Origin: an uncultured Chthonomonas sp.
Lineage (GTDB): Bacteria; Armatimonadota; Chthonomonadetes; Chthonomonadales; Chthonomonadaceae
Length of the DNA stretch: 64,000 nucleotides
Reading direction: 5' to 3'
Assembly (NCBI GenBank): GCA_903859705.1
Contig: CAIONQ010000122.1
Span: 1 to 64,000, forward strand
The notes under the pieces are model-generated. The model had not been told where the DNA came from. It made no database searches and worked only from the letters and a program-made list of their open reading frames with translations. Both the position numbers and the translations under genes were made by a program. Shown in pieces: positions 4,595-38,328 of this stretch. How positions within the stretch are numbered: position 1 is the first letter of the stretch; each line of letters opens with the position of its first letter.

Positions 4595-6058
4595 CTACTC
4601 AGTCTTCTGCTCTATTAGCGTGCCGAACCGCTTGCCGATGGCGAGCGCAGGATCCAGTGGCACATCCACAGCCGCGCAATCCGAAGGGATGCTTATGGTT
4701 GGTGTTTGCCTCAGTTGCTTACCTTCAAACTGTGGCAGGTAGGGCCGTAGCTCTTCCAGCATCTCGCTGGTCATATCCCGTATCTCTTTCAGCGTAAGCA
4801 CCGCTGCGGTTAACGGGTCCAGGCTCATGGCATGTACCAGATGCTCTGGATCGCCACCAAGTGCGGCCTCCGCACACAGAGATTGAACATTGATATTCGT
4901 CTGGCACAGAGCAGCACATTGCGGAGGCAGATCACCGATGACGGTGGGATGCAGGCCCGTGTCGTCGGCGAAGGTGGGTACCTCTACGCAGCAGCCGTTT
5001 GGCAGGTTGGTTATGTACCCATCGTTACGTACATTGCCCATTAGCCGGAACGGTACACCGGTGGTAACCGCTTCCAGAATGTAAGAGCAGTACTCCACGC
5101 TTCGCCCTTCAATTTTTGTTGTCTCAAACTGCAGTGGGTCTACCTTTGCATACTTTTCGGCCATTGCCTTGCCCCACTTGTAGTAAGCTCCCGATTCGCC
5201 ACCGAAGCCTGGCTCATCACAATACAGATCCAGTGCGGCCTTGCTGCTTCTAAACCACGGAACGTACTCGGATAAGTGTCCCGTAGATTCGGTCATGAAG
5301 TAGCCGAACTGGCGGAACACCTCGCCACGAACTTTCTCGTTCTTATAGTATTCAGGCAGTTCAAACTTCTCTTTCAGTTCTGGGTAGAGGTCTCTGCCCT
5401 TGTGCTCCAGCTTCAAAAACCAATCCATGTGGTTAATGCCGCCGCAAACAAAACTGATTTCGTCTTTAGGTACCTGGCAGTAGCCGCCAATAAGATCCAG
5501 GGTGGTTTGCACACCGTGGCACAGGCCAATAAACGGCACGTTGGATACTTTGCCGAGCGCCAGGCAGTTGGCAGCCATGGGGTTGGCATATTGCAGCATG
5601 ATGGCACCGGGCTTTGCAAACTTCTCCATATCGCGGGCAATATCTGCAAGCACGGGTATGTGGCGCTGGCCACGGAAGATACCGCCGGGGCCCAGCGTAT
5701 CGCCAATACACTGATCCACGCCATATTTCAGCGGGATCTCATAATCCACGCCATACGCGTGAAAGCCGCCTACCTGAATCATAACAACAACAAAATCGGC
5801 ATCTTTTATCGCTTCTGCCCGGTTGGTGGTGGCCCAAACTTTGCCCGGAAGCCCATTATCTTTGAGCATGCGGTTGCCAAATGCTTCCATGGCGCGCAGT
5901 TTCGGCTCGGTTGGGCTCATCAGCGCAAATTCACTGTTTGCCAGGCTGGGTGTGGCAAGTATATCGCTCATGAGTGTTTTGCAGAAAACCACGCTGCCTG
6001 CGCCGATCATTGCAATTTTCTTCGGCGCACCGGTTCCCAATTTGTTAATTCCCGTCAT
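4595..6058 (-). CDS. GH4 family alpha-glucosidase/alpha-galactosidase-like glycosidase
   Basis: 487 aa from ATG 6058, chosen because reverse-strand GGGAGCGGAGC lies just upstream and the NAD-binding strand begins nearby; a longer open frame exists but lacks homology-like sequence. Family 4 hydrolases use NAD+ and a divalent metal to cleave alpha- or beta-glycosides by oxidation-elimination. Visible motifs are GAGS at 19-22 (dinucleotide loop), GDTLGPGGIFRG at 119-130, NPMAANC at 159-165, CHGVQ at 180-184 and GGINH at 206-210. C180 and H210 match the metal ligands. No signal peptide, so cytoplasmic. Its stop lies 1 bp from that of the convergent WD40 gene. It is divergent from a Gfo/Idh/MocA oxidoreductase, which suggests shared sugar catabolism. 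Substrate cannot be decided. Confidence 0.93.
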   Translation of the reverse strand: MTGINKLGTGAPKKIAMIGAGSVVFCKTLMSDILATPSLANSEFALMSPTEPKLRAMEAFGNRMLKDNGLPGKVWATTNRAEAIKDADFVVVMIQVGGFHAYGVDYEIPLKYGVDQCIGDTLGPGGIFRGQRHIPVLADIARDMEKFAKPGAIMLQYANPMAANCLALGKVSNVPFIGLCHGVQTTLDLIGGYCQVPKDEISFVCGGINHMDWFLKLEHKGRDLYPELKEKFELPEYYKNEKVRGEVFRQFGYFMTESTGHLSEYVPWFRSSKAALDLYCDEPGFGGESGAYYKWGKAMAEKYAKVDPLQFETTKIEGRSVEYCSYILEAVTTGVPFRLMGNVRNDGYITNLPNGCCVEVPTFADDTGLHPTVIGDLPPQCAALCQTNINVQSLCAEAALGGDPEHLVHAMSLDPLTAAVLTLKEIRDMTSEMLEELRPYLPQFEGKQLRQTPTISIPSDCAAVDVPLDPALAIGKRFGTLIEQKTE

Positions 6059-36351: not shown

Positions 36352-37437
36352 TTGGACACTACAGATACCACCAATGGTAACTGGACCGCTGGCACTTTTG
36401 CAGAGATCGTTGGCGGTGTTGTTTCTGGCGATGCAGAAATACAGGTTACGGGCCTGGGTGGCATTGATACTGCCGAGGCAGGCGATCTTGTTTTTGCAGA
36501 AAGCGCAAAGTATGTAGAGGCAGCGCTCAAGAGCCGGTGTGCCGTTATTATTACCCGTGCAGAGTTTGCTACGGGCTCCAAACCACTGATTCTGGTTGAT
36601 GAACCAAGGCTCGCCTTTCTTAAGGCACTTGAATTTGTTGCACCCGCACCCGTGTACACTGCCAGAGTACACCCAATGGCCTGGGTGGCGCCAGATGCTG
36701 TGATAGGGGATGACGTGCAGATTGGTGCTTTCGCCTCTGTTGGCGCCGGGGCCAATATTGGAAGCCGGGTTATAATCGGAGAAGGCGTACGCATCGGAGA
36801 TGGCTGCCAGATAGGCGATGAGACGACGATACGGCCGAATGTGGTACTGTATCCGGGAATGAAAATTGGTCGACGCTGTTTGATCCAGGCAAATGTTGTT
36901 ATTGGGTCAGATGGCTATGGCTTCATGCAGGTAGGTCACGGCATCAAGAAGGTTCCGCATATCGGCATAGTTCGCATCGAAGATGATGTTGAAATTGGCG
37001 CGGGATGCTGTATTGACCGTGCAAAAACTGCAGAAACTGTGATCGGGATGGGTACGAAACTGGACAATCTCGTACATGTCGGTCACAATGTAAGGATTGG
37101 CCGGTTCTGCTTAATTTTGGCCCATGTCACATTTGGTGGAACCAGTGTAGTCGAAGACGGCGCAATCATCTCCGGTGGCTCGTTAATTAACGATCACATT
37201 ACTGTGGGAGCCAGATCTCTGGTTGGCGGCAACAGTGGTGTTCGGTACGATGTGCCGGCCGGAGGCAGGGTATATGGTACGCCTGCCATACCGCTGAATC
37301 AGAGGCTTCGTGAAGTATCTATGATGCAGAAGCTTCCTGAAAACCTCAAACTGCTGCGCACCCTGGCGGAGCGTGTATCGCGTCTGGAAACAGGCACGAC
37401 AGGTGTGGCGGAAGTGCCAGCCGAAGAGGCGTTATAG
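36352..37437 (+). CDS. lpxD: UDP-3-O-acylglucosamine N-acyltransferase LpxD
   Basis: 361 aa from TTG 36352 with AAGGA 9 nt upstream. Third step of lipid A synthesis. N-terminal uridine-binding domain to about residue 100, then a left-handed beta-helix of hexapeptide repeats (IGDDVQIGAFASVG and on). LVHVGHNVRIG holds the catalytic histidine. Ends in a short helical tail. Its TAG stop is in the same frame as the following lpxC, with 39 bases to the first plausible lpxC start, an unusual arrangement. Confidence 0.95.
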   Translation: MDTTDTTNGNWTAGTFAEIVGGVVSGDAEIQVTGLGGIDTAEAGDLVFAESAKYVEAALKSRCAVIITRAEFATGSKPLILVDEPRLAFLKALEFVAPAPVYTARVHPMAWVAPDAVIGDDVQIGAFASVGAGANIGSRVIIGEGVRIGDGCQIGDETTIRPNVVLYPGMKIGRRCLIQANVVIGSDGYGFMQVGHGIKKVPHIGIVRIEDDVEIGAGCCIDRAKTAETVIGMGTKLDNLVHVGHNVRIGRFCLILAHVTFGGTSVVEDGAIISGGSLINDHITVGARSLVGGNSGVRYDVPAGGRVYGTPAIPLNQRLREVSMMQKLPENLKLLRTLAERVSRLETGTTGVAEVPAEEAL

Positions 37438-37457
37438 CCGCACTCTGTATTCCCTGC

Positions 37458-37479
37458 GGGAGATCGGAACACGAACATC
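37458..37479 (+). promoter_or_regulatory. lpxC: Ribosome-binding site of lpxC with near-cognate start candidates
   Basis: GGGAG at 37458-37462 is followed by ACG at 37471 (8-nt spacing) and ATC at 37477 (14-nt spacing), both in the lpxC frame. No ATG, GTG or TTG occurs in that frame between the lpxD stop and 37603. Confidence 0.6.
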
Positions 37480-38328
37480 GCACGATCAGCTGCGCAAAAC
37501 ACCCTGGCACGGGCGTTCAGCCTAACTGGCGTTGGCATTCACACGGGTAAGCCTGGCAGGGTTACCGTTAAGCCCGCAGAAGAGAACCGAGGTAGGCTAT
37601 TCTTGGTGGAAGGTACGGAAATCCCGGCATCCGCTGATTTTGTGGTGGATAGTAATCGGTGTACCACGCTAGGGAAAGCCGGTGTGCGGTTGAGTACGGT
37701 AGAGCACGTTCTGGCGGCCCTTGCCGGTTGCCATATAGATAACGCCATTGTTGAGGTTGAAGGGCCGGAAATGCCCATCCTCGATGGAAGTTCTCTCCCA
37801 ATTATTGAAGCCATAGCGGATGCAGGTATATCTCCACAACCTGCAGCACCACGCTATATCGCGGTTACTAAAGCGCTGCGTACCGCATCCGATAACGGCA
37901 GTAGCTGGCTGACTGCCGAACCTGGAGATGGATTTGAGTTAACCGTGGAAACACAGTTTAACGATTGGCCGCAGGGTGATGCGCGGCATACCGTGGATCT
38001 CAGCTCGGGCCGAGTGGCCTTTGAAGCAGAGTTTGCCATGGCCAGAACATTTGCCTTTTACGCCGAGGTGGCGCCGCTTTTGGCAGCTGGCCTGGCCAAA
38101 GGTGGGTCGCTGGATAATGTGGTGATCATCACACCGCCCGATACGTTTAGCACTTCGCTGCGTATCCCGGGTGAGTGGTGGCGCCATAAAGCGCTGGATG
38201 TAGTTGGCGATCTTGCCCTGGTGAACGCCAGGCTTGCTTGCCGGATTGTGGCCTACCGGCCCGGACACACCGTGAACACCCGTATGGCGAAGGCACTGCT
38301 GGAGTTGGGTGTTATGAGCGGATCGTAA
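37477..38328 (+). CDS. lpxC: UDP-3-O-acyl-N-acetylglucosamine deacetylase LpxC
   Basis: 283 aa if initiated at ATC 37477 (or 285 from ACG 37471); the first ordinary start is TTG 37603, which would delete the conserved AFSLTGVGIHTGKPGRVTV segment that all LpxC proteins have. Zinc ligands by this numbering are H77, H237 and D241, with E76 and H264 in the active site, within two positions of E. coli LpxC, which supports the far-upstream start. Committed step of lipid A synthesis. Non-AUG initiation, a base error in the assembly, or read-through of the lpxD TAG (same frame) are the three explanations. Confidence 0.88.
   Translation: MARSAAQNTLARAFSLTGVGIHTGKPGRVTVKPAEENRGRLFLVEGTEIPASADFVVDSNRCTTLGKAGVRLSTVEHVLAALAGCHIDNAIVEVEGPEMPILDGSSLPIIEAIADAGISPQPAAPRYIAVTKALRTASDNGSSWLTAEPGDGFELTVETQFNDWPQGDARHTVDLSSGRVAFEAEFAMARTFAFYAEVAPLLAAGLAKGGSLDNVVIITPPDTFSTSLRIPGEWWRHKALDVVGDLALVNARLACRIVAYRPGHTVNTRMAKALLELGVMSGS

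Follow-up and report, generated by a model that had tools for sequence, protein, structure and literature searches.

The lpxC gene of an uncultured Chthonomonas sp. lacks a canonical start codon before its conserved N terminus and may use near-cognate initiation

We analyzed a window of 64,000 nucleotides (contig CAIONQ010000122.1, positions 1 to 64,000, assembly GCA_903859705.1) from an uncultured Chthonomonas sp. that carries a complete lpxD-lpxC-fabZ-lpxA-lpxB block. The lpxC reading frame is open from 37438 to its TAA and is the same frame as that of lpxD. In the frame opened at 37438, residues 20 to 288 match PF03331 (LpxC) over profile positions 1 to 267 of 268 (E 8.9e-81), and the TIGR00325 match (E 3.5e-64) scores 217 bits against a cut-off of 187. 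The product has the zinc ligands and the catalytic motif (STVEH, RHK..D), and the assembly contains one copy of lpxC, which is otherwise intact. The features discussed below are as follows.

36352..37437, plus strand: lpxD, the gene upstream of lpxC (open reading frame; NCBIfam TIGR01853, E 3.8e-87)
37435-37437, plus strand: lpxD stop codon TAG, in frame with lpxC
37458..37462, plus strand: GGGAG, resembling a Shine-Dalgarno sequence (-7.4 kcal/mol when paired with the 16S tail)
37471..38328, plus strand: lpxC coding region as proposed, starting at 37471 or 37477 (PF03331, TIGR00325; single copy)
37471..37473, plus strand: ACG, candidate lpxC start, 8 nt past GGGAG and 8 codons before the conserved Gln
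37477..37479, plus strand: ATC, candidate lpxC start, 14 nt past GGGAG; the better near-cognate codon
37495..37602, plus strand: conserved LpxC N-terminal segment QNTL..LTGVGIHTG.. (family identity; alignment to solved LpxC)
37603..37605, plus strand: TTG, first in-frame canonical codon of lpxC, residue 56 of the open frame, with GAGGT upstream
38326-38328, plus strand: lpxC stop codon TAA
38362..38964, plus strand: fabZ, the gene after lpxC (open reading frame, ordinary ATG)

A sequence-only reading of this DNA had pointed out that lpxC has no ordinary start between the lpxD TAG and TTG 37603, and the sequence bears this out: none of the three frames contains ATG, GTG or TTG between 37438 and the codon for the conserved Gln (37495), and the same is true of 5.5% of random 57-nt stretches of this genome. 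TTG 37603 sits 36 residues within the conserved protein. The same reading held the LTGVGIHTG segment upstream of this TTG to be indispensable, and the segment is indeed conserved like the rest of LpxC: residues 20 to 55 show 52% identity within the family, compared with 49% in the remaining protein, a ratio of 1.07 (0.83 to 1.05 in other family members). The alignment to solved LpxC starts at E. coli residue 4, and a codon-pair model trained on the same genome detects a coding signal from about residue 17, 38 codons ahead of the first canonical codon. The equal conservation of the segment before TTG indicates that its translation continues or ended only very recently; if the N terminus is used, some codon before 37495 has to act as the start. 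The missing canonical start of lpxC is a real and unusual observation.

A fair candidate for the initiation signal in the leader is GGGAG, which we evaluated with the 16S 3' end of the same assembly (GGATCACCTCCTTT). Its duplex energy is matched or bettered in 3.7% of random windows and at 27% of clear starts in this genome, where clear starts average -5.1 kcal/mol versus -2.5 further upstream. As proposed earlier, GGGAG is ideally spaced to ACG 37471, and ATC 37477 lies 6 nt beyond. Initiation at ATC would give the N terminus (M)ARSAAQNTLAR and initiation at ACG (M)NIARSAAQNTLAR; either length is within those found in relatives. Counted from ATC, the zinc ligands are His 77, His 237, and Asp 241, within two positions of E. 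coli (79/238/242), just as the sequence-only reading had calculated; counted from ACG, the first zinc-ligand His is residue 79. Among random 19-codon stretches without a stop, 6% contain a near-cognate codon with an equally strong Shine-Dalgarno sequence (4% if only ATA, ATC, ATT, and CTG are allowed), so that the arrangement is suggestive and not a proof. The two candidates have opposite weaknesses, which count against near-cognate initiation: ACG is well spaced but among the poorer near-cognate start codons, whereas ATC is a better codon but poorly spaced. We slightly favor ATC because infC starts with ATC in Streptomyces (PMC5472188) and apparently also in G003, another member of the family. 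A search for an internal promoter found none. A possible hairpin at 37454-37497, with GGGAG in its lower part and ACG and ATC in its upper part, is notable only in the chosen 44-nt piece (z -2.2); we did not count it, since its ends were picked after the fact and longer pieces of 71 and 91 nt are ordinary (z 0.05 and 0.37).

We compared lpxC across 33 loci, most of them from members of its family, order, and phylum; related genomes of this kind are not independent samples. In every relative with an lpxC N terminus, a canonical start lies 1 to 18 codons ahead of the Gln; the present lpxC is the only one of the 33 without it. In the only congener, the lpxC start is TTG. The closest relative is 51% identical, with a leader that is not alignable. 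Conservation of the near-cognate codon, which had been suggested as a check, is thus not found in related leaders, all of which are canonical. A scan of the genome collection, which may omit such records, for a second assembly of the species returned distant loci only.

The earlier reading had also proposed weak initiation as a control point of lpxC, the committed lipid A step. Across loci L001-L034, GTG and TTG starts are frequent in lpxC, lpxA, and lpxD, and fabZ, between lpxC and lpxA, starts with ATG in 31 of 32. An ATG is absent from lpxC at 16 of 33 loci and from fabZ at 1 of 32 (p 3e-5, although the genomes are related and not independent); for lpxA and lpxD the counts are 13/32 and 8/31. 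The similar rates in lpxA and lpxD led us to reject a weak start specific to lpxC and suggest that weak starts are a trait of lpx genes generally. Judged by these codons, the committed step is not alone in its weak initiation, GTG and TTG starts being common across the operon, and nothing in the sequences appears to link the near-cognate codon of lpxC specifically to control of that step. Apparent missing starts of lpxA (L003) and lpxD (L022 and L023) proved to be artifacts, with an ATG slightly further upstream.

To judge how unusual lpxC is within its own genome, we compared 1.29 Mb of it with 1.2 Mb of G003, in which 243 of its genes have a match. lpxC was the only clear case without a canonical start before the conserved part; the other entries were rRNA regions, shadow frames, one broken gene, and small offsets. 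A coding-signal scan of 807 coding open reading frames gave two clear outliers, namely lpxC and a gene on contig C23 for a large membrane protein, and the ranking was unchanged with 852 frames. The leading outliers of the same scan in G003 were a masked stretch, prfB (a programmed frameshift), two apparent frameshift genes, and a single gene whose start is unclear.

Further candidate near-cognate starts occur in the same genome. infC (L178:1456-1458, plus strand) reads GGAGGGGTGGATCC-ATT-AAT-AAA-GAT, an apparent ATT start behind GGAGGGG (-11.6 kcal/mol), and apparently has the classical near-cognate arrangement; infC of G003 (C1:1046077-1046598, minus strand) has its apparent ATC start behind GGAGGT. 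The C23 outlier, a large permease-like protein with no Pfam family (L138:5491-8199, plus strand), has ATT at 5551-5553 (contig C23:25551) in the context AAAAGAGGGGGATAAAGCC-ATT-ACT-CTG, where GAGGGGG reaches -11.1 kcal/mol, as do 0.25% of random windows. Alignments with a paralogue and with relatives from three other genomes of the family begin at residues 32 to 37, whereas its first canonical codon comes only at residue 46; as a near-cognate example, this gene is probably stronger than lpxC. A bPH_2-domain protein on contig C9 (L066:19028-19702, minus strand), with no relatives found in the family, has TTG at residue 69 as its first canonical codon and a candidate CTG start at 19618-19616 behind GAGGT (GAGGTATTAAA-CTG). 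Together, the infC, C23, and C9 candidates raise the prior for near-cognate initiation in this genome.

These findings are best explained by a functional lpxC that starts, shortly past the end of lpxD, at a near-cognate codon, ATC 37477 and ACG 37471 being the likeliest, a reading to which we assign a probability of about 0.55. The main competitor, less likely and still a serious one, is that most cells have a canonical start, for example ATG 37471, and that the assembly carries one wrong base or a minority variant. ACG 37471 is a single transition away from ATG and ideally spaced to GGGAG, and GCG 37492 is one from GTG, so that one wrong base (e.g., 37472 or 37493) would give the same picture; no relative lacks a canonical start, the assembly is a draft of 179 contigs, and the N-terminal conservation is equally expected. 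On the other hand, among 254 orthologs with ∼91,000 aligned residues, no gene is frameshifted, and doubtful internal stops number just one or two. In so clean an assembly a base error is improbable for any given gene, and the chance of hitting the lpxC start is, by rough inference, ∼1e-4, although looking for oddities enriches for such cases and could turn up one. The further apparent near-cognate starts in the same genome also argue against an error.

Other explanations fare worse. Readthrough of the UAG, making LpxC the C-terminal portion of a fusion to LpxD, would fit the single frame and the single TAG between the two genes, with no other stop; it is very unlikely, given that a shared frame arises by coincidence 1 time in 3, that most relatives in which both genes could be read differ in frame (the same only in L024 and L030) with lpxC having its own start, and that an Rfam search of the region matched no known RNA element. 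We consider it highly improbable that LpxC is truncated, beginning at TTG 37603, or that lpxC is a dying gene: a GAGGT lies 9 nt upstream of the TTG (-8.0 kcal/mol), but such a protein would lose QNTL...GVGIHTG, which aligns throughout to solved LpxC and is as conserved here as elsewhere in the family, and the remainder of lpxC is intact, single-copy, and within the complete block. Use of another noncanonical codon (CTG 37504, GTA 37447, GCG 37492) or of several is scarcely to be expected. CTG is an efficient near-cognate start codon; however, none of the three has a Shine-Dalgarno sequence (0.6, -2.0, and 0.1 kcal/mol, respectively), and a start at CTG 37504 would remove the conserved QNT. 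A frameshift was rejected, there being no upstream start codon in any frame and no frame-displaced homology.

Near-cognate initiation of lpxC, as proposed earlier, stands as the best-supported reading, resting on the conserved segment, the fair GGGAG, and the infC and C23 cases, whereas the codon itself is not conserved in relatives. In the mechanism that we envisage, GGGAG would select ATC 37477 or ACG 37471, perhaps assisted by ribosomes finishing lpxD 34 to 40 nt upstream, and weak initiation limited by IF3 codon proofreading would keep the LpxC level low. The working of the near-cognate codon in the cell, the choice between ATC and ACG, and any regulation are what we infer from this arrangement and from known systems. 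Against it stands the moderate Shine-Dalgarno sequence of lpxC compared with the extended ones at infC and the C23 gene; this weighs against a near-cognate start because the tested Staphylococcus aureus cases also have extended ones (PMC13009471).

The closest parallels are genes with weak starts in other bacteria. infC, which encodes IF3, starts with ATT in E. coli and ATC in Streptomyces and is subject to IF3 proofreading (PMC5472188). Like lpxC with its putative ATC start, it is an essential gene with an ATN near-cognate start; unlike lpxC, it has an extended Shine-Dalgarno sequence in the present genome, is autoregulated in E. coli, and has near-cognate starts again and again in distant bacteria. 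IF3 fidelity mutations are reported to raise the output of other near-cognate starts 3- to 15-fold (PMC5472188). In Streptomyces, a weak GTC start repressed by IF3 keeps expression of sigR low (PMC5472188); this is likewise a single gene with a weak noncanonical start, but it is found across streptomycetes, has been tested experimentally, and differs from lpxC in codon and function. The S. aureus genes cvfC1 (AUU) and ccpN (AUA) have weak starts giving ∼10 to 30% of AUG expression (PMC13009471) and, with pcnB of E. coli (AUU), resemble the proposed lpxC case in that weak ATN starts limit expression; the S. aureus sites are extended and conserved, whereas that of lpxC is moderate and not conserved. 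In enterobacteria, FtsH, LapB, and YejM hold LpxC low (PMC12444477) by proteolysis and not at initiation. The term "start codon" does not appear in that review of LpxC control, and in the literature searched we found no mention of initiation-codon proofreading as a control layer for lpxC.

Should the start prove real, initiation-codon proofreading would limit a rate-setting and essential enzyme of the envelope, and lpxC would join the small known class of bacterial near-cognate-start genes, most likely as a new example. It is a more doubtful, and in our view unlikely, extension that this lineage regularly uses Shine-Dalgarno-backed near-cognate starts to keep infC, lpxC, the permease-like gene, and perhaps the PH-domain protein low, which would tie LpxC supply to IF3 in a phylum without known FtsH control of LpxC. 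Given the other near-cognate candidates, testing whole genomes across the phylum for such starts is worthwhile. Gene callers take only ATG, GTG, and TTG, so an lpxC of this kind is likely to be annotated as truncated; here, the GAGGT ahead of TTG 37603 may lead a caller to choose that codon, though the protein would be incomplete.

A separate observation concerns contig C24, where a gene fragment (L121:9546-9836, plus strand) matches a G003 protein over its second half and has an in-frame stop within the match, which points either to gene decay or to a fault in the assembly.
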